In this document: positions 1 through 13,301 of the stretch, one piece after another | Layout: each line of letters begins with the position of its first letter | Position numbering within the stretch: position 1 is the stretch's first letter | Assembly (NCBI GenBank): GCA_016214955.1 | Contig: JACRMN010000019.1 | Location: 1-64,000 of the forward strand | Origin: Deltaproteobacteria bacterium | GTDB lineage: Bacteria; Myxococcota; Myxococcia; Myxococcales; Anaeromyxobacteraceae | Length of the DNA stretch: 64,000 nt | Direction of reading: 5' to 3' | Position numbers and translations under genes: made by a program | Notes under the pieces: generated by a model | The model's database searches: none | What the model saw: only the letters and a program-made list of their open reading frames with translations | Told to the model about the DNA's origin: nothing

Positions 1-1493
1 CGCTTGGTCTCGGCGGCCAGGTTGTTGGCCTGCTGGGCGTTGTCGGCGGCCTGGCGGGTCTGGGCGGACATCGACTCCAGCGAGGAGTGGGTCTCCTCCA
101 GGCTGCTGGCCTGCTCGGAGGCGCCCGAGGCCACGGCCTGCGAGGAGGAGGCGATCTGGCCGGCGGCGCCGGAGACCTGCTCGACCGCCTCGGCCACCTG
201 GCCGAGGGCGTCGTGCAGGGCGGAGGCAGCGGCGTTGAGGGCCTCCTTGATGGCGGCGTGGTCGCCCTGGTAGCTGCCCTGCATGCGGGCGGTGAGGTCG
301 CGCTCGGCGAGCCGCTCGAGTGCCTTCCGGGCCTCGTCGATGGGGGCGAGGACGGCGTCGAGGGTGGCGTTGACGCCGGCCACCACTTTCTGGAAGTCGC
401 CCTGGTGCTTCGAGGCGTCGGCACGGGTGGAGAGCTTGCCCTCCACGGCGGCCTGCGAGAGGGCGTTGGCGTCGCGGACCAGCAGGTTCACCGCGTCGAT
501 GCAGCGGTTCAGGTTCTGCTTCACCTGGTCGAAGGCGCCCTCGTACTTGTCGGTGATCTGGGGCGGGATCTCGCCGCGCGAGATGCGGTCCACGTAGTCT
601 GCGGTCACCTGCATGGGCTTCACGAAGGCGTCCACGGCCCGGTTCATGCCCGAGACCACCGGGCGGAACTCGGCGGCCACCGCCTGCTCGTCGGCCCGGA
701 CCTCGAGCTGGCCCGCGGCGGCGGCGGCGGTGAGCTTCCCTGCCTCGCCGTTGAGCTGCTGGATGGTCCGCTCCACGGTTCGGCCCAGGACGTAGGCCAG
801 CGCCGCCATCACCGCGGCGGCGAGGAGGATCACCGCCAGCTCGATCTGGATCAGCCGGCCCTCGGCGGCGGCGGCGGCGGCGTGGGAGGCCTCCGACTCC
901 TTCTTCACCAGCTCGTGGATCCGGGTGATGCCCTCCTCGATCGGATCGGTGGCGCCGTGCAGGTTGGGCCAGGTGTCCCAGATGCGCTTCTCCACCATCG
1001 CCAGGGGGCCATCGGGGCGGGCGCCGGCGGCCACCTGCCGATCGCGCTCGCCGAGCAGGTCCCGCATCTGCCGGGCCTGCTCCATCCAGTCCACCACCTC
1101 CTTGCGCACCGCCGGCCAGAGCTTCCCGGACTCGCCGGTGACGGGGATGGCGTCGAGCCGCTTCACGGCCTTCTCGACGGCGGGAAGCGAGGTGTCGACC
1201 CGGTCGGAGAAGAGGGCCGGCGTGGCGTGGCAGCCACCGCACGACTCGTTGCTCATGACCTTCTCGTTGACCCGGGCCAGCGCCAGGTTGGCGAGGTACT
1301 GGTTGGTCTGGCGGAAGCCGACGCGGATGTCGGACAGCGCCCTGTAGGTCGGAAACTGCGAGTCGCTGATGAGGCCGAAGGAGCCGGCCATGCGACTCGC
1401 GGCCACGTACGAGGCCACGCCAACGGCGATGGCCACCGCCAGAGCGGCGGCGAAGCCGCCCAGGATCTTGGTTCGAGTGCGGTATTCGCGCAT
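1..1493 (-). CDS. Methyl-accepting chemotaxis protein with a c-type haem motif, 3' end cut off
   Basis: This is a membrane chemoreceptor that should signal to a CheA/CheW complex. The start is ATG at 1493, behind an AGGGGAG ribosome site; 497 codons are visible and the frame runs off the left edge. A first membrane helix lies near residues 10-32 and a second near 213-235, so about 180 residues face the periplasm. That domain contains CGGCH at residues 85-89, the covalent haem c motif. After the second helix come several HAMP-like repeats, then the start of the methyl-accepting signalling domain (Ala/Ser/Gln-rich heptads near residues 440-497). The conserved hairpin tip lies beyond the window. 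Haem-bearing chemoreceptors are known in Geobacter; a redox- or gas-sensing role here is inference. No che genes are in view. Confidence 0.9.
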   Translation of the reverse strand, partial: MREYRTRTKILGGFAAALAVAIAVGVASYVAASRMAGSFGLISDSQFPTYRALSDIRVGFRQTNQYLANLALARVNEKVMSNESCGGCHATPALFSDRVDTSLPAVEKAVKRLDAIPVTGESGKLWPAVRKEVVDWMEQARQMRDLLGERDRQVAAGARPDGPLAMVEKRIWDTWPNLHGATDPIEEGITRIHELVKKESEASHAAAAAAEGRLIQIELAVILLAAAVMAALAYVLGRTVERTIQQLNGEAGKLTAAAAAGQLEVRADEQAVAAEFRPVVSGMNRAVDAFVKPMQVTADYVDRISRGEIPPQITDKYEGAFDQVKQNLNRCIDAVNLLVRDANALSQAAVEGKLSTRADASKHQGDFQKVVAGVNATLDAVLAPIDEARKALERLAERDLTARMQGSYQGDHAAIKEALNAAASALHDALGQVAEAVEQVSGAAGQIASSSQAVASGASEQASSLEETHSSLESMSAQTRQAADNAQQANNLAAETK

Positions 1494-1508
1494 GGGCTCC
1501 CCTGGTGA

Positions 1509-1671: not shown

Positions 1672-2685
1672 TCAGCCGAGGTCGGCGACCGTCGCCGGGC
1701 GGGGGGCCTTGCGGAAGTGGCGCTCCAGGAAGGTCAGGGTCTCGTGGAGGGTGTCCCGCGGATCGCGGGGCGCGAAGCCCAGCTCGCGGACCGCCTTCTG
1801 CGAGTCGATGAAGAACCAGTGCTCCCCCATCGCCACCTCTTCCTCCGAGATGGGCGGCTCCGACTCGCGCCACTCGTGGAAGCGCGCCAGCAGCCAGGCC
1901 CCGGCCACGTTGGCCCTGCTGGGCAGGCGCAGCGACGGCACCGCCACGCCCGAGAGGCGGGAGAGCCGGCCGAAGAAGTCGGCGAAGGTCATGTTGGCGC
2001 CGCCGAGCAGGTAGCGCTCGCCGGGCCGCCCGCGGGTCAGGGCCGAGACGAAGGCCGCCGCCGCGTCGCGCACGTCCACGAAGGAAAGGCCGCCGGTGGG
2101 CATGGCCGGGATGCGCCGCTCCAGGAACTTCCAGACCACGTCGGTGGAGGAGAGGCGCAGGTCGCCGGGTCCGAGCAGCAGCGAGGGGTTGAGGACCACC
2201 ACCTCCGGGCCGCCGTCGCGGTGGAAGCGGAGCGCGGTCTTCTCCTGGAAGATCTTGGAGAGGTAGTAGGGCCAGCGGGCCACCACCGCCAGGGGGTAGT
2301 CGTCCTCCTCGGTGTGCAGCCTCTCCTCGCGGGAGATGCCGATGGTGCCGGAGGAGGAGGCCAGCACCACGCGGCGCACGCCGGCGGCGCGGCACTCCTC
2401 CAGCAGCACCCTCGTGCACTGCACGTGAAGGTCGTACATCGAGGCCGGATCGCTCCCCTCGAACGACACCTGGCCGGCCAGGTGGAAGACGGCCTCCACG
2501 CCGGCCAGCGCCTGCCGCACCGCCTTCCGGTCCTGGAGCGGCGCCTGGATCACCTCGGCGCCCAGCGCCGCGGCCTCGGGCGACGGCGAGCGGCCGATGA
2601 GCCGCAGCGCGTGGCCCGCCTCGGCGAGCAGCGGCACCAGCGCGCCGCCCAGGAAGCCGGTTCCACCGGTGACCAGGAGCTTCAC
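1672..2685 (-). CDS. NAD(P)-dependent SDR/epimerase (dihydroflavonol reductase-like), last gene of an elb-like cluster
   Basis: This is a 337-residue extended short-chain dehydrogenase. The N-terminus carries the nucleotide-binding motif TGGTGFLG (residues 6-13), and YYLSK near residue 150 is the catalytic YxxxK. The family reduces or epimerises sugar and lipid-linked carbonyls; the substrate cannot be read from sequence. The start is GTG at 2685, directly behind a GGGGGGAGGAG ribosome site. Its first bases overlap the stop codon of the multidomain gene upstream (GTGA overlap), so the two are translationally coupled. A homologous reductase ends the ether-lipid (elb) operon of Myxococcus xanthus as I recall it, so a role in reducing an ether-lipid precursor is plausible. 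That assignment is inference. Confidence 0.85.
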   Translation of the reverse strand: MKLLVTGGTGFLGGALVPLLAEAGHALRLIGRSPSPEAAALGAEVIQAPLQDRKAVRQALAGVEAVFHLAGQVSFEGSDPASMYDLHVQCTRVLLEECRAAGVRRVVLASSSGTIGISREERLHTEEDDYPLAVVARWPYYLSKIFQEKTALRFHRDGGPEVVVLNPSLLLGPGDLRLSSTDVVWKFLERRIPAMPTGGLSFVDVRDAAAAFVSALTRGRPGERYLLGGANMTFADFFGRLSRLSGVAVPSLRLPSRANVAGAWLLARFHEWRESEPPISEEEVAMGEHWFFIDSQKAVRELGFAPRDPRDTLHETLTFLERHFRKAPRPATVADLG

Positions 2686-5600
2686 GGCTCCTCCCCCCTG
2701 GCCTTCATCGCCGCCGGCGCCTCCCCCCCCGCCGAGGAGGCCGAGGTCGCAGCCGGGGCCGGGGTCAGGGTCGGGGTCGGGGTCGAGGTCGCGGTCGCGG
2801 TCGCGGTCGAGGTCGCGGTCGGGGTCGCCATCCCCCTGGCCTGTGCCTCCAGCGCCCGGACCGCCTCCTCCATGAGCTGGGTGGCGGCCTTGTGGGCGTC
2901 GCCCTTGGCCAGCGCGACGGTCCGGGCCCTGAGGTCGGCGACGCGGATGGGCTGGCCGATGAGGACGCGCAGCTTCTCCCGGCGCGGGAGGCCGCGGCCC
3001 GGCGGCAGGGCGTCGTGGGTCCCGACCAGGTAGACCGGCAGCGTGTCCACCTGGCACTGGAGCGCCAGGTAGCCGGCGGTGGGCTTGAAGGCGGCCATGC
3101 GGCCGTCGCGGGAGCGCGTGCCCTCCGGGAAGATGAGGAGGTTGTAGCCGCGCCGCAGCGCCTCGGTGGCGGCCCGCAGGCTCCTGCGGATGGAGCCCTC
3201 GCGGTCCATGGGGATGAGGTTGGTGAAGTTCTCGAAGTAGGCGCGCTTCAGCGGGGTGTCGAAGAAGTAGTCGCGGGCCGCCAGCGCGGCGAGCTTGTGC
3301 CCGGCCTCGCCCAGCGCCACCTTGACGAGCCCCATGTCGAGGTGGCTGGCGTGATTGGCCACCACCAGGAAGTTGCGGTCCCGGGGGATGAAGGCCTCGC
3401 CGGTGACCTCGGCCTCGAACCAGCCGCGGTAGAGGGCCCGCTGGCCGACGTCGAGCAGCCTGCGCCCGGCAGCGGCGATGCCGGCCGGGACGGCGACGTC
3501 GCCGGAGCCGGGGCCGGAGGTCGCCGGCGCCGGGGCCTCGCTCGCCTCCCGCGCCTCCTCGGGCCGGTGCAGCGCCGGCCCCACCAGCCGCGAGAGCTCG
3601 GCCACGGTCTGCACCTGGTGCAGGCTCTCGGTGGTGGACGGCGGCACTCCGGCCGCCTCCAGGGCCGCCGCCAGCTCGTTGAGCATCAGCGAGTCGAAGG
3701 AGAGGTCGGTGGAGAGGTGGCAGTGGAGCGTGATGGCGGCGCGGGGGCGGCGCGAGATCTCGGCCAGCAGATCGAGGAGCCAGCCATCTCGCCCGTGGGT
3801 CGCCGCCTCGCGCGCCTTCTTGCCCTTGTGGGCCGCGGCCTCGAACTGCTGGAGCTGCTCGATGACCCACTTGCGCTTCACCTTGCGGGTGGAGGTGCGC
3901 AGCAGCTCCCCCTCGGTCCAGTGCCAGACCTTGACCCGCTTGTAGAAGGGCAGGCCAGCCGAGACCTGCCGCAGGTGGTCGGAGATCCGGCGCATCACCT
4001 CGTCGCGGGGCCGGTCCTTGAAGTCGGGCACCAGGAGCATCGCCACCTTCTCGCCGCCGTGCTCCGGCAGGCCCACGATGGAGAGCTCCTTCACCAGGTC
4101 CGCCTCCTGGTACAGCTCCTCCAGCTCGTCCGGATAGACGTTCTTGCCGTCGGCGTCGATGATGACGTCCTTCTTGCGCCCCGACAGCGTGAGCCGCCCC
4201 TGGGCGTCGAGCTTCCCCAGGTCGCCGGTGTGGAGCCAGCCCCCCTGCAGCACCTCGGCGGTGCGCGAGGGATCCACCGCCGGGGGCCCGCCGCCGCCCT
4301 GGAGGTAGCCGAGCATGACGTTGGGGCCCCGGGCCAGCACCTCGCCCACGCCGGACGCGTCCGGCTCGTGGATGCGGATCTCGATGCCGGGCAGCGGCTT
4401 GCCCACGTTGCCGGAGGAGGGGCCGTCGTCGGGGGTGGAGACCGACAGCACGGGCGCCGCCTCGGTGAGCCCGTACCCCTCGTAGAGATCGAAGCCCATC
4501 TCGTGGAAGGCGGCCTGCACCTCGGGCGAGAGGGCCGAGCCGCCGGACACCAGGATGCGCAGCCGGCCGCCCATCTTCCGGTGCACCGGCCAGAGAAGCC
4601 ACTTGCCCAGGTTGAGGTCGGCGTCGGCCCGCAGCTTCTTGTTGGTGGCCCGCAGCAGGTCGAAGGCCTGCTCCACCAGCCCGGGCCGGGCGGCGATCTC
4701 CTGGGTGATGCGGCGGTGCAGGAGCGCCCAGAGCGCCGGCACGCCGATCATGGCGGTGATGCGCCCGCTCTCCAGCGCCTCGCCCAGCCGGTCAGCGGTG
4801 AGCTCGTCGAGGTACTCGATCTCGCAGCCGCGGGAGAGCGGCACCAGGAGGCCGCAGGTGAACTCGAAGGTGTGGTGCAGCGGCAGCACCGACAGGAGCC
4901 CGTCGCCGGGTCCGAGGTCGAAGAGGCCGGAGAGCTTGGCCACCAGCGAGGTGAAGTTGCGGTGGGTGAGCATCACGCCCTTGGGCGTGCCGGTGGTGCC
5001 GCTGGTGTAGATGACCGCGGCCAGGTCGTCGGGCGAGGCCTCGCGCGGCAGCTCGGCCGGCGGGCCGCCGGCCAGCGCCTCGTGGAGGAGCGCCGGGCGC
5101 GTGGTGCCCTGCTCGCGCCAGCGGGCCAGGAGGTCGCCGAGGCCGGCGGCGGTCTCCGCGGAGAGCAGCGCCACCCTGGCGCCGGCGCTGCGGGCCAGGT
5201 TCTCGATCTCCGCGGCGGAGAGCTTGGCGTCCACCGGCACCGCGGCGCCGCCCGCCAGGATGATGCCGAACCAGGCGATGGGCCACTCGGGCCGGTTCTC
5301 CCCGGCCAGCAGCACCCGGTCGCCCTTCCGGACCCCGGCGGCGCGGAGGAACAGGGCCACGCGCCGGGCCCACTCCCGCAGCTCGCCGTAGGTGAAGCGC
5401 TCCTTGCGCTCGCCGGCCATGCGCAGCGCCCCGCGCATCTTGTGGAGCTCGGCGGAGGCCTCGAGCAGCTCGATGAGATCGCGGTGCTGCTTGACGACGT
5501 GGACGCGCTTCTTCGACTCCTCCTCCAGCCCGGGGAAGACCCACTCCTCCATCCCCTGCATGTGGACGTCGAGCCAGTAGGTGCGCCAGTCGAGGCGCTC

Positions 5601-7237
5601 CGGGTCCCAGGGCAGCGCCTCGCGGTCGCGGGGCGACAGCCTGGCGTGCAGCTCGCGGACGTTGGCGCAGCGGAAGATGTAGCGGTTGTCCCAGACGAAG
5701 GGGAGGAAGAGGTCGTAGATGGCCTCGACCTGGCCCACCTGCGCCTCGGCCTCGTCGAAGCGGTCGGCGATGACGCCGGCCAGGGCGGTGAGGCGCGGCG
5801 CACCCCAGCGCGGCCCGCGCTCCCGCAGGAGCCGCGCCCCCTCGCGCAGCAGCTTGCCGAAGGCCGGCGCGCTGAAGGTCTCGTAGTGGCGCCGCGAGGT
5901 GGAGTAGGGCTCGAAGCGCGAGCGGACCTCGTTCCAGAGCTCGCTGCCCTCCTCGCGCCGCTTGTAGAAGCGGCGGCGGTAGAGGCCGGTGAGCTCCACC
6001 GCCCGCCGGCCCCAGAACGGGTTGGTGTCGCTGGAGGCCAGGTGGTAGACGGCCCGGGGCCGGCCGGCGACGCAGGCGGCGGCGATGGCCACGAGACCGG
6101 CGGCCACCAGGTCCACCGGGACGAGGTCGAGGATGGCCTTCTCGGCCATGGGGAAGACCCGCTGCCCCTTGAGCCCCATGAACGCCAGCGGCGCGCTGGT
6201 GGTGAAGCCCTCGTTCCAGCCGGGGAAGGGGTAGCGCAGCGCCGTCTCGACGATGGCCGGCCGGGCGATGGCGTAGCGGACGCCGCTGCGGGCGATGGCC
6301 TGCTCGCCCAGCGACTTGGTGTACGTGTAGGTGTTGGGCCAGCCCCAGTGGCGGGCCCGGTCCATCCCCAGGTCCACCAGCCGCTTCGAGATCCAGAGCC
6401 GCTTCTCGCGCCCTACCGCCAGCTTCTCGGCGCGGGCGTCGCCGCTGCGCCCCTCGAGCCGCAACCGCTCCAGGGCGGCGGCGCGGAAGAGGGAGAGGCG
6501 GGCGGCGTCCTCGGCCTCCTCGCGCACCCGGGCGATGCGGAGCTCGCAGTCGGTGAGCTCCCGCTCCAGGTCGAAGTCGCGCGGATCCAGGGTGGGCGCC
6601 TTGGGCCGGCCCATGACCCCCTCGCGGCGCGGGAAGTAGCCGTCGATGGCCTCGTCCTCGTAGACCACGCCGTCGCGGTTGCCGGCCACGAAGCAGGTGG
6701 AGACGTGGAGCAGCGCCGCGCCGGTGCGCCGGCACAGCTCCACCGCGTTCTGGGCGCCGCGGGTGTTCACGCCCAGCGCCAGCTCCAGCGAGGGGTTGAA
6801 GTCCACCAGGCCGGCGCAGTTCACCACCAGGTCGAGCGGCCCCAGCGCCGCCAGGTCCTCGGGGGAGATGCCGAAGAGCGGGTCGGAGACGTCGCCGCCC
6901 ACCGCCTGGCACTTCTCGCGGATGAAGGCCTCGAAGCCGGCGCCGCGCGCCTGGCGCAGCGGGTCGAAGGGGCGGGCGCCCGCCACCTTGCTCCAGAAGC
7001 GGCCGTCGGCGCTGCCGCCGGTGCCGGCCCGCACCAGCACGAAGACCTTGCCCACCTCGGGGTAGCGGTGGAGCAGCATCGACAGCGCCACCTTGCCCAC
7101 GAAGCCGGTGGCGCCGGTGAAGAGGATGCGCCGGCCGCGGAGGGCCCGGGCCACGTCGAGGGGCGGCTCGGCGTGCGCCAGGCCGGCCGCGGCCGGAGGG
7201 TGGGGCGCGCCGTGGGCGCCGTTCTTGCGGCCGTCGC

Positions 7238-7241
<4 letters not shown>
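2682..7241 (-). CDS. 1519-residue fusion: fatty acyl reductase, AMP-ligase, carrier domain, acyltransferase (ElbD-like)
   Basis: Four enzyme modules are visible in order. Residues about 35-500 are a male-sterility/thioester-reductase domain with GATGFVG near 43 and YTYTKSLGE near 306. Residues about 620-1110 are an AMP-binding ligase with [10 protein letters not shown] near 745 and HTGDLG near 1005. Residues about 1160-1220 look like an acyl carrier domain with FDSLML near 1183, whose Ser would hold phosphopantetheine. Residues about 1260-1460 are a PlsC-type acyltransferase with NHASHLD near 1297 and FPEGTRSR near 1374. A Pro/Ala-Thr repeat tail follows. The set suggests that a fatty acid is activated, reduced to an alcohol and placed on a glycerolipid. 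The layout matches what I remember of ElbD from Myxococcus xanthus ether-lipid synthesis. ATG at 7241 overlaps the upstream stop (ATGA). Confidence 0.9.
2761..2828. repeat. GGTCGN hexamer array encoding a Pro/Ala-Thr tail (locus A)
   Basis: About eleven tandem copies of the six-base unit GGTCGG/GGTCGC lie inside the 3' end of the multidomain gene. Read on the coding strand they give alternating Thr with Pro or Ala (residues about 1471-1493). The same unit recurs at 13215-13254 and 32491-32575. Confidence 0.85.
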
Positions 7242-8842
<1,601 letters not shown>

Positions 8843-8844
8843 GC

Positions 8845-9522
8845 CTACCCCTGGGTGGTGTCGACGATGGGCCACTCGTAGGCGCGGGCCACGCTGCGCA
8901 GCCGCACGTCCGGGTTGACCGCGGTGGGATGGCCGACGACCGCCAGCATGGGGTAGTCGGAGAAGCTGTCGCTGAAGGCCCAGCAGCGATCGAGCGCCAG
9001 GCCTCTCTTGACGCAGTAGTCCCGCATCACCTGGGCCTTGTGGGCCCCCTCGACGATGGGCGGGATCACCCGGCCGGTGGCCACTCCGTCCACGAAGTGC
9101 ATGCGGTTGGCGATGAGGTCGTCGGCGCCGAGGTGGTCGGCGAGCCGGCGCACGGTGAAGTCCAGGGCGCCGGTGACCAGCACCACGCGGCAGCCGGCGC
9201 GGCGGGTCTCGTCGAGGAGGCGGCCGGTGCCGGGGTGGAGGGCCGGCTTCAGCACGTCGGTGAAGAGCTCGTCGGCGAGCGTCAGCAGCCGGTCCTGGGT
9301 CTGGCCCTTGTAGAACCCGTAGAAGAGCTCGTTGAAGGCCTTGCGGTTGACCTTGTCGAGCGCCCACAGGAACGGCGCTGCGGCGGCGGTCTTGGCCGTC
9401 TGCCAGGCGGTGCCGAAGATGGTGCCCTGGTTCATGGCGTAGTACGCGAAGGCGTGGACGATGTTCGTCCGCACCAGCGTGCCATCCACGTCGAAGAACG
9501 CGGCCTTCTGCGGTGTGGTCAT
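8845..9522 (-). CDS. HAD-IB family phosphatase (SerB-like), first gene of the elb-like operon
   Basis: This 225-residue HAD hydrolase has all the core motifs: DVDGT at residues 11-15 (nucleophile Asp11), VTGA near 115, a Lys in the GAHKAQ segment, and the acidic motif SDSFSD near 185. Its cap is small and alpha-helical, as in the phosphoserine-phosphatase subgroup. HAD-IB proteins of this kind often sit beside PlsC acyltransferases and act on phosphorylated lipid or serine intermediates; the substrate here is unknown. It is the first gene after a likely promoter (9537-9564) and is followed within two bases by the LarA-like gene. Start ATG at 9522 has a CGGAAG ribosome site. Confidence 0.9.
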
Positions 9523-9536
9523 CGGCTTCCGTGCGG

Positions 9537-9564
9537 TCTAGACGAAAACCGATGCCCGAGTCAA
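9537..9564 (-). promoter_or_regulatory. Likely sigma-70 promoter of the elb-like operon
   Basis: On the minus strand TTGACT (9564-9559) and TCTAGA (9542-9537) are separated by 16 bases, close to the housekeeping consensus. Transcription would begin near 9530, eight bases before the HAD gene start. The spacing and AT-richer context support it. Confidence 0.55.
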
Positions 9565-9590
9565 AGCGCGGCGCGTGATCGGACGCCCCT

Positions 9591-10556
9591 CTAGAGCCAG
9601 CCCTGCGCACGGTACCAGCGAGCCGACCGCTCGATGGAGTCCGAAAGGGGCGTTTCGGCCACGAAGCCGAGCCTTTCCCGGGCCTTCCCCGGATCACAGG
9701 CCCAGCCGGGGGCGAGGAGCTGGCGCGCCAGCTTGCGGTTGAGCGGCAGCCGCCGGCCGGTGGCGCGGGTGACCAGGTCGGCGAGCGCCGCGGCGGCGGA
9801 GAGGAGCGAGGCGGGGAGGGGGACGTCGCGGGTGCGGACGCCCAGCACCCGGGCCGCAGAGGCCAGGAGCCCGGCCAGGCTGGTGCGCTCCGCCGAGGCC
9901 AGGAAGAAGGGCTCGCCCACCGCCTCGGGTCGCTCGGCCAGCAGCAGGAAGCCGCGGGCGCAGTCCTCGACGTCGATCCAGGAGATGGGCCGCTCCGGAC
10001 CCGAGAGCCGCAGCACCAGGCCCCGGGCCGCCAGCTTGAAGAAGAGCAGGTTCTCGCGGTCTCCCGGGCCGACGATGCGCGGCGGGCGGGCCACCGTCAC
10101 CGGCAGCCGGTCCCGGTAGGAGAGGGTGATGCGCTCGGCCTCGGCCTTGGACTCGCCGTACCACTCGGCGGGCTCGAGGGGCTCCTCCTCGCGCCGGCCG
10201 GTGCGCGAGGGGCCGGCCGCGGCGAGGGAGCCGGCCAGCACGAAGCGGGTGCGGGCGGCGCCGCGGGCCAGGCAGGCCTCCAGCAGCGACCGGGTGGCGT
10301 CGGCGTTGACGGCCATGAACTCGTCGCGGACCGCGGCGCGGCGCACGCCGGCCAGGTGGAAGACCAGGTCGCAGCCCTCCACCGCCGAGGCCAGCGAGGC
10401 CTGGTCGGTGACGTCGGCGCGGCAGGGCTCGGCGCCGGCGGGCAGCGACGGGGCCTCGCCGCGGAACAGGGCCCGGACGGCCACGCCCCGCTCTGTCAGG
10501 CGGTGGACGAGCACGCCGCCGAGGAAGCCGGCGGCGCCGGTGACGAGCGCGCGCAT
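9591..10556 (-). CDS. NAD(P)-dependent epimerase/dehydratase (extended SDR)
   Basis: A 321-residue extended SDR with the Rossmann motif TGAAGFLG at residues 6-13, a conserved HLAGVR segment, and YGESK near residue 155 as the YxxxK catalytic pair. It is related to but distinct from the SDR at 1672-2685. The family includes sterol, sugar-nucleotide and flavonol reductases, and the substrate is not evident. It lies 68 bases upstream of the HAD gene on the same strand, so it may be cotranscribed with the elb-like genes, although those have their own likely promoter. It is divergent from the PPOX/TetR pair, with a strong palindrome between them that may control both directions. Confidence 0.88.
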
Positions 10557-10633
10557 CGGGCGAGTGGGCCACGCCGGCAGGGCGGCGTCAACGGGCCGGG
10601 TGGGACCCCGGGCACGCGCTTGCCATCCGTCCC

Positions 10634-10660
10634 TTCCATACCATACCGTATGGTATGGAA
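10634..10660. promoter_or_regulatory. TetR-type operator: 12-bp inverted repeat in a divergent promoter region
   Basis: TTCCATACCATA and TATGGTATGGAA are perfect complements around a CCG centre. The stretch is much AT-richer than its surroundings and also contains the tandem pentamer CCATA. It lies between the divergent SDR and PPOX/TetR genes and covers the annotated PPOX start codon at 10655. The TetR gene two cistrons in is the natural candidate binder. Confidence 0.7.
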
Positions 10661-11233
10661 ACGGGCACACCCACTCACCCGCCGGCCTCGCTGCGCGGGC
10701 GCGTCCTCCGCAGCCTGGCCCTGCGCTACCGCGCCTGGGCCCGGGGCCGCAGCCGCTCCGGTGCCGAGCCGGTGCTGCGCGCCGCGCGGGCCACCATGCG
10801 GCGCAAGAAGTACTGCCTGCTGGTCACGGCCGCCGGCGACGGGACGGCGCGGGCCCGCGTGCTCCAGCCCTTCCCGCCGGGGCCGGACCTCACCGTCTGG
10901 ATGGGCACCAGCCCGCGGACGCGCAAGGCGGCGGAGCTCCGCGCCGACCCGCGGGCCACGCTCGTCTACCAGGACGACGCCCGGGCCGCCTGCGTGGTGC
11001 TGGCCGGCCGCGTGGTGCAGGTCGAGGCCGTGGAGGAGCGGCGCCGCCGCTTCATGCCGGGCTGGTGGGCCTTCTGGCCGGAGGGGCCGGAGGGGCCCGA
11101 CTTCGTGCTGCTGCGGTTCGAGCCGGAGGCGCTGGAGGTCTGGGACGCCACACGGCACATCACCCCCGAGCCCTTTGGCCTGCGCTCGGCCCGGCTGGTG
11201 CGGCGTGGCGGTGCCTGGGCGGAGGCGCGATGA
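10655..11233 (+). CDS. Pyridoxamine 5'-phosphate oxidase-like flavin-binding protein
   Basis: This 192-residue protein has the split-barrel pattern of the PPOX-like family: a conserved RRKKYCLLVTA strand, a TVWMGTSPRTRKAAELRADPRATLVYQD segment typical of flavin-binding members, and a Trp-rich C-terminus. Such proteins bind FMN, F420 or haem; the cofactor cannot be decided here. The annotated ATG at 10655 lies inside the palindromic operator and has no ribosome site, so either the mRNA is leaderless or translation starts further in, for example at Met48. Its stop overlaps the start of the TetR gene (ATGA), so both are one operon. It is probably controlled by that regulator. Confidence 0.8.
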   Translation: METGTPTHPPASLRGRVLRSLALRYRAWARGRSRSGAEPVLRAARATMRRKKYCLLVTAAGDGTARARVLQPFPPGPDLTVWMGTSPRTRKAAELRADPRATLVYQDDARAACVVLAGRVVQVEAVEERRRRFMPGWWAFWPEGPEGPDFVLLRFEPEALEVWDATRHITPEPFGLRSARLVRRGGAWAEAR

Positions 11234-13214: not shown

Positions 13215-13254
13215 CGCGGTCGGGGTCGGGGTCGGGGTCGAAGTCGCGGTCGCG
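13215..13254. repeat. GGTCGN hexamer array in a divergent promoter region (locus B)
   Basis: About six tandem copies of GGTCGG/GGTCGC lie between the rubrerythrin and DUF1015 starts. This is the same unit as the two coding arrays, but here it is untranslated. Confidence 0.8.
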
Positions 13255-13301
13255 CTTGGGTTCGCGCTCCCGTTCCCGTCGCCACCCCGCTCGCGGTCGG
13301 G

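Follow-up and report, generated by a model that had tools for sequence, protein, structure and literature searches.

A further elb operon, from an Anaeromyxobacteraceae bacterium, and the assignment of its ElbC to the LarA superfamily as a predicted nickel-pincer nucleotide protein

The ether-lipid biosynthesis (elb) operon of Myxococcus xanthus is described in a 2022 review as five genes, coding for an NAD epimerase (elbA), a HAD protein (elbB), a protein of 'unknown function' (elbC), a fusion of fatty acyl reductase (FAR), acyl-CoA synthetase (ACS), acyl carrier protein (ACP) and acyltransferase (elbD) and a second NAD epimerase (elbE), and both the formation of the ether bond in the ElbD route and the role of ElbC are stated there as open (PMC9131029). 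Here, we describe a further member of this known kind of operon in a 64,000-nucleotide stretch of bacterial DNA (the whole stretch analysed, hereafter the window), and we identify its elbC product as a member of the LarA superfamily, predicted to be a nickel-pincer nucleotide (NPN) protein with one catalytic histidine. Its closest named relative is the ElbC of Anaeromyxobacter sp. RBG_16_69_14 (85% identical), from which the genome would be placed in the Anaeromyxobacteraceae. Taken as a whole, the explanation towards which we lean, at somewhat better than even strength, is that of an elb operon in which an NPN-type ElbC acts on a glycerol-bearing intermediate.

The elb operon of the window

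All five genes lie on the minus strand, with elbA first in the order of transcription, and coordinates throughout are those of the window unless another genome or locus is named:

9591-10556, minus strand: elbA-like extended short-chain dehydrogenase/reductase (SDR; NAD-dependent epimerase/dehydratase), 321 aa (Pfam Epimerase, 1.3e-32)
8845-9522, minus strand: elbB, HAD-IB family phosphatase, 225 aa (PF12710, 3.1e-38; TIGR01490, 133.8 bits against a cut-off of 98.3)
7238-8842, minus strand: elbC, LarA homologue of the LarAH14/15/16 type, predicted nickel-pincer nucleotide enzyme, 534 aa (Lar_N, 8.7e-37; NF052592)
2682-7241, minus strand: elbD, FAR/AMP-ligase/carrier/PlsC enzyme, 1519 aa (Pfam)
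1672-2685, minus strand: elbE, extended SDR, 337 aa (PF01370 (Epimerase), 1.6e-34; motifs TGGTGFLG and YYLSK)

An earlier note on this DNA had pointed to a likeness to the M. xanthus operon on the strength of a HAD phosphatase, a LarA-like protein, a four-module enzyme and an SDR, and all four genes are found on the minus strand where it placed them. The tight coupling that it described is confirmed by two 4-base overlaps, between elbC and elbD (7241/7238) and between elbD and elbE (2685/2682), and by a gap of only 2 bases between elbB and elbC. The boundaries of the cluster need correction, as a fifth gene, the SDR at 9591-10556, had been missed; this gene occupies the place of elbA and ends 68 bases before elbB, and the resulting order on a single strand of elbA (SDR), elbB (HAD), elbC, elbD and elbE (SDR) is that of the elb operon.

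For the comparison of sequences we used a Myxococcus-like complete genome (G121), M. xanthus itself being represented by its published description. The likeness holds in both cases: order and domains are as described in PMC9131029, and the five genes are 52-67% identical in G121, where they stand in the same order (55, 63, 67, 52-59 and 58% for elbA to elbE). Because gene order, overlaps and domains match G121, and gene order and domains match the published operon gene for gene, assignment to the elb operon is supported, and the likeness to M. xanthus extends to the architecture of ElbD and the close packing of the genes. What sets the two apart is that the window's genome has neither a CarF match nor a close AGPS (see below), and that elbC, 'unknown' in the review, is here identified as a LarA homologue (LarAH). 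Loci with these domains in this order are found in two phyla, which rules out chance or mis-called genes, and an elb operon has previously been reported in subdivision 4 Acidobacteria (PMC10087280). A counterpart of elbA occupies the same place in G121 and in the Anaeromyxobacter loci L040 and L042-L046; in M. xanthus, insertions in elbA leave ether lipids unaffected (PMC9131029).

The reductase, AMP-ligase, carrier and PlsC modules that had been read from the translation of elbD are all detected by a Pfam domain search:

6099-7118, minus strand: fatty acyl reductase module, NAD_binding_4, residues 42-381 (E 2.6e-46; motifs readable in the translation)
4302-5462, minus strand: AMP-ligase module, AMP-binding, residues 594-980 (E 4.4e-84; motif readable in the translation)
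3582-3782, minus strand: carrier module, PP-binding, residues 1154-1220, with a DSL serine (E 3.9e-6)
3027-3410, minus strand: PlsC acyltransferase module, residues 1278-1405, with NHASHLD and PEGTRS (E 1.8e-22)

The order FAR, AMP-ligase, carrier, PlsC within this 1519-residue protein is that expected of an elb enzyme, and the ElbD of G121 (1474 aa) has the same architecture. As a separate observation, the 3' end of elbD (2755-2835) consists of GGTCGCGGTC-like repeats that encode a low-complexity tail, and low-complexity coding sequence resembling this tail also occurs near 13250-13300 and elsewhere in the genome (G000:C4:50602-50715).

ElbC as a single-histidine LarA homologue

ElbC matches the NCBIfam model NF052592 (LarAH14/15/16) over its full length with 857.6 bits, well above the curated cut-off of 740, which is also passed by the ElbC proteins of G121, of Pyrinomonas (Acidobacteriota) and of other Myxococcota. 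Its AlphaFold model (mean predicted local distance difference test score, pLDDT, 86.8) finds its best match in PDB entry 9q3k (template-modelling scores 0.78/0.86), followed by 9q3j, both of them LarAHs with a single catalytic histidine, while lactate and malate racemases rank lower. The active site was compared across an alignment of 114 ElbC homologues:

8450-8452, minus strand: H131, the retained catalytic histidine (LarA H108), in 114/114
8225-8227, minus strand: K206, the expected thioamide link to the NPN (LarA K184), in 114/114
8177-8179, minus strand: H222, an expected nickel ligand (LarA H200), in 114/114
8567-8569, minus strand: L92, at the position of LarA R75; Leu, Val or Met in 114/114, Arg in LarA and Lys in LarASp
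8252-8260, minus strand: N195-L196-N197, a shortened, histidine-free loop at the site of LarA His174; N195 and N197 in 114/114

D89 (LarA D72) is likewise present in all 114 homologues, and H462 aligns with H401 of LarASp, a shared C-terminal active-site histidine. The loop that carries the second catalytic histidine of LarA, H174, is 4 residues shorter in ElbC and has no histidine, and within it the alignments disagree as to whether N195 or N197 is the counterpart of H174. Arg75 of LarA contacts both the phosphate of the cofactor and the carboxylate of the substrate. ElbC thus differs on two counts from the hydroxy-acid racemases LarA, Mar, Hgr and GntE: it has only H131 of the two catalytic histidines, and it has no Arg (R75) or Lys at the position that binds carboxylate or phosphate. 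The closest solved fold is that of the LarAHs of Blautia wexlerae and Streptococcus plurextorum (9q3j and 9q2u/9q3k; group 17, octameric), whose structures as single-histidine LarAHs were described by Gatreddi et al. (PMC12611868) and which share with ElbC the NPN-site residues, the one catalytic histidine and the C-terminal active-site histidine. They are only ~20% identical to ElbC, their genes lie in a carbohydrate context, and ElbC differs from them in its loop, 4 residues shorter, and in having Leu for Lys at the R75 position.

Since the second catalytic histidine and the carboxylate-binding Arg are absent, hydroxy-acid racemisation by ElbC is unlikely, and it has been suggested that LarAHs without H174 may catalyse another hydride-mediated reaction (Desguin et al., PMC7583248). 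The name of the NCBIfam family and the fold would fit a conventional racemase or epimerase that serves the operon indirectly, for example by acting on 2-hydroxy fatty acids, yet the second histidine and the Arg or Lys, both of which take part in the known racemisation mechanism (PMC12611868), are missing in 114 of 114 homologues and LarAH14 acted on none of the hydroxy acids with which it was tested (PMC7583248); we regard such a role as highly improbable. Similarly slight are the prospects of an ElbC that has dispensed with its cofactor and serves the operon in a structural or regulatory capacity. The NPN residues are reportedly missing from some LarAH groups (PMC7583248), and two divergent paralogues (L155, 6113-7723, and L156, 6188-7693 in their own loci; ~31% identity, ~340-350 bits to NF052592, no elb genes among their neighbours) have lost H131, K206 and H222. 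Conservation of these residues is therefore not a given for this branch, and in true ElbC proteins they are invariant; between Myxococcota and Acidobacteriota, moreover, ElbC is ~65% identical against ~45% for the modules of ElbD.

The genes that mature the cofactor are present in the window's genome, LarC and LarB on one contig (C30) and LarE on another (C9). LarC occurs in 134 of the 138 genomes with ElbC, and it is retained in all 27 genomes of one genus (g33) and all 16 of another (g19), none of which has a Lar_N protein besides ElbC. Every ElbC genome checked has LarB and LarE, except that G054 is without LarB and LarC, possibly through an assembly gap.

Retention and loss of ElbC with ElbD

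The association of ElbC with ElbD was followed through 195 Myxococcota genomes, with ElbD scored by its FAR module and with eight contig-edge fragments among the ElbC proteins counted. Both are present in 137 genomes and neither in 56, with ElbC alone in one and the FAR module alone in one, so that presence or absence is shared in 193 of 195; counted by genus, the figures are 50 with both, 39 with neither, none with ElbC only and one with the FAR module only. This agreement includes unlinked cases, as elbC and elbD lie side by side in 102 genomes and separately in the other 35. At three of the unlinked sites (G144, G018 and G189) a separate ElbC unit is set against an ElbD-ElbE unit, and in G144 and G018 ElbB stands beside ElbC. 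The family to which the window belongs repeatedly shows neither ElbC nor ElbD, namely in genera g5 and g6 and in G048 and G049, the two further species of the window's genus, whose assemblies are 87% and 81% complete.

A second survey drew its 80 named loci from Myxococcota and Acidobacteriota, with a few from elsewhere. At 63 of 64 testable loci elbC is preceded, on its own strand, by a HAD gene (elbB), and ElbD is encoded downstream of elbC at 53 of 55 (44/44 in Acidobacteriota). The earlier note was right to see a LarA-like protein within the operon, while its view of this gene as unexplained no longer applies, as the gene is elbC itself, conserved beside elbB. A stray insertion of a LarA-like gene is ruled out by the same adjacency.

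Among the Acidobacteriota, Pyrinomonas methylaliphatogenes K22 (L051) has the whole elbB-E set, and this obligate aerobe is known to contain glycerol ether analogues as >40% of its membrane lipids, together with membrane-spanning iso-diabolic acids (PMC4644332). That the operon makes ether lipids in the window's organism also is part of the explanation towards which we lean. The cluster might instead make another lipid derived from an aldehyde or alcohol, such as a wax ester or fatty alcohol, as no lipid data were found for the window's lineage and ether lipids went undetected in Pontiella despite its elbD homologues (PMC11868695); given that the whole operon is shared with M. xanthus, whose ether lipids require elbD, and that the set is present in ether-rich Pyrinomonas, this seems unlikely.

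AGPS, CarF and the alternative routes

The established AGPS route (MXAN_1676-1674; FAR1, GNPAT and AGPS in human) resembles the elb route in its logic of FAR, acyltransferase and SDR and, as proposed below, in a shared alkyl-dihydroxyacetone phosphate (alkyl-DHAP). The AGPS query used here matches the PDB alkyl-DHAP synthase (E 5.6e-166), and matches to it above 600 bits were counted as close AGPS. Such proteins occur in 20 of the 195 Myxococcota genomes and in 18 of the 137 with both ElbC and ElbD; the remaining 119 of these 137 thus differ from the AGPS route in having no close AGPS. In the window's genome (G000, 95.6% complete) and its family no match as good as E 1e-45 was obtained, so that an AGPS side route appears to be absent there, and the PF02913 proteins of G000 appear GlcD-like, as judged by eye only. 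The rarity of AGPS in elb genomes agrees with the observation that in M. xanthus disruption of MXAN_1676 has a minor effect on ether lipids, whereas elbD is needed (PMC9131029). G121 has, in addition to its elb genes, a separate operon like the one known from MXAN_1676-1674, with genes for AGPS, a FAR-acyltransferase and an SDR, and it also carries CarF.

No CarF match was obtained in the window's genome or in 14 control genomes, while all nine Myxococcus-like genomes were matched by this family. Because of this lack of a CarF match, vinyl ethers (plasmalogens) are not expected in the window's organism, and plasmalogen synthesis was rejected as a function of its genome.

A proposed role for ElbC in ether-lipid synthesis

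The ligase and carrier activities of ElbD are known, and in M. xanthus ether lipids depend on elbD and possibly on elbE (PMC9131029). According to the same review, i15:0 aldehyde was lost in elbD mutants, no fatty alcohol was detected, and the phenotype of an elbB insertion was only partially rescued by elbD; the incompleteness of this rescue would be consistent with an insertion that is polar on elbC as well.

We propose the following route. The AMP-ligase of ElbD would activate an iso-branched fatty acid, the carrier would hold the acyl chain, and the FAR module would reduce it, probably to the aldehyde. The fatty aldehyde and O1 of sn-glycerol 3-phosphate (G3P) would form a hemiacetal, on which His131 of ElbC would deprotonate the C2 hydroxyl as the C2 hydride passes to the NPN; transfer of that hydride to the acetal carbon, with release of water, would give 1-O-alkyl-dihydroxyacetone phosphate free of AGPS. 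ElbE would then reduce the ketone of alkyl-DHAP, acylation at sn-2 would fall to the PlsC module of ElbD, and ElbB would strip the phosphate en route to neutral ether lipids. The reaction so proposed for ElbC is redox-neutral, calls for one base on the C2 hydroxyl and requires no carboxylate-binding Arg, and it would account for ether synthesis without AGPS.

These parts differ in strength. That ElbC has an NPN-dependent role in the ElbD pathway is probable in our estimation. That it forms the ether bond itself, by an internal hydride shift in a fatty-aldehyde/G3P hemiacetal that yields alkyl-DHAP, is a tentative and decidedly speculative suggestion. The main rival, which we would rate as possible though well short of even, has ElbC preparing or recycling a small polar substrate, for instance through a 1,2-hydride shift of the aldose-ketose type or by epimerising, in one direction only, a phosphorylated polyol whose phosphate ElbB would then remove, with the ether bond made by ElbD or another protein. 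ElbB and ElbC stay paired where ElbD and ElbE have moved away (G144 and G018), which suggests an intermediate common to ElbB and ElbC, and the nearest solved relatives are encoded amid carbohydrate genes and have a ligand modelled as a phosphorylated aldose (PMC12611868). The near-perfect co-retention of ElbC and ElbD makes a general sugar role unlikely, however, and most such genomes have no close AGPS that could form the ether.

Several points weigh against the reading that ElbC is an NPN enzyme of ether-lipid synthesis. Two genomes (G045, locus L160, and G006) have LarB, LarC and LarE and no Lar_N protein at all, either because the nickel-pincer cofactor has another user there or because a LarA was missed; the presence of LarBCE therefore supports, and does not prove, an NPN in ElbC. 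The Fisher values for ElbC and ElbD ignore phylogeny beyond the counts by genus. The family NF052592 is labelled 'hydroxyacid isomerase' in NCBIfam, LarAH14 from Frankia showed no activity with any substrate tested (PMC7583248), and we found in the literature no clean elbC mutant, NPN detection or substrate for ElbC. A match of ElbD to the Sterile domain, weak at 31.5 bits against a cut-off of 35.4, could mean an alcohol-forming FAR, which would be better suited to AGPS-like chemistry. Finally, the PlsA/Ger ester-to-ether reductases of anaerobes also yield alkyl or alkenyl ethers from acyl chains; they lie outside the elb cluster and are mostly described under anaerobic conditions.

Upstream region and flanking genes

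The likely promoter that the earlier note had assigned to the cluster is not supported, as a search limited to the sigma-70 type found no such site in 9400-10900, including the interval 9522-9591. The region upstream of elbA contains the following element:

10634-10660, no strand assigned: perfect 27-base palindrome TTCCATACCATAC-C-GTATGGTATGGAA (in full TTCCATACCATACCGTATGGTATGGAA)

A divergent PNPOx-like gene (10655-11233) begins within the palindrome and is followed by a TetR-type gene (TetR_N), ~0.6 kb from the palindrome; the palindrome is a possible TetR operator. The loci of Anaeromyxobacter and Myxococcus that were examined do not have it. At the other end of the operon, a gene for a methyl-accepting chemotaxis-like protein (1-1497, minus strand) runs off the start of the window, and its translation includes a CGGCH (CxxCH) haem c motif in the presumed sensor domain.

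Implications

The identification of ElbC as a nickel-pincer type LarAH appears to be new: we found no paper that connects ether lipids or elb to LarA-type proteins or to NPN proteins, though subscription papers, including the original 2014 report, lay outside the search and priority is uncertain, and for LarAH14/15/16 the literature search turned up no activity and no link to ether-lipid genes. We know of no NPN enzyme previously placed in lipid synthesis, and ElbC, if the proposal is true, would be the first.

Bacterial ether lipids matter for the developmental signals of myxobacteria, for plasmalogens and for the climate proxies based on branched glycerol dialkyl glycerol tetraethers (brGDGTs), and the elb route is one candidate source in Acidobacteria. 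The identity of ElbC gives a testable idea of how the ether bond may be formed in myxobacteria and, for LarAH groups without a known reaction, a concrete lead to a substrate. If the proposed reaction is true, it would define a route to ether lipids independent of AGPS, in which ElbC acts as an NPN enzyme of lipid synthesis that is neither racemase nor epimerase.

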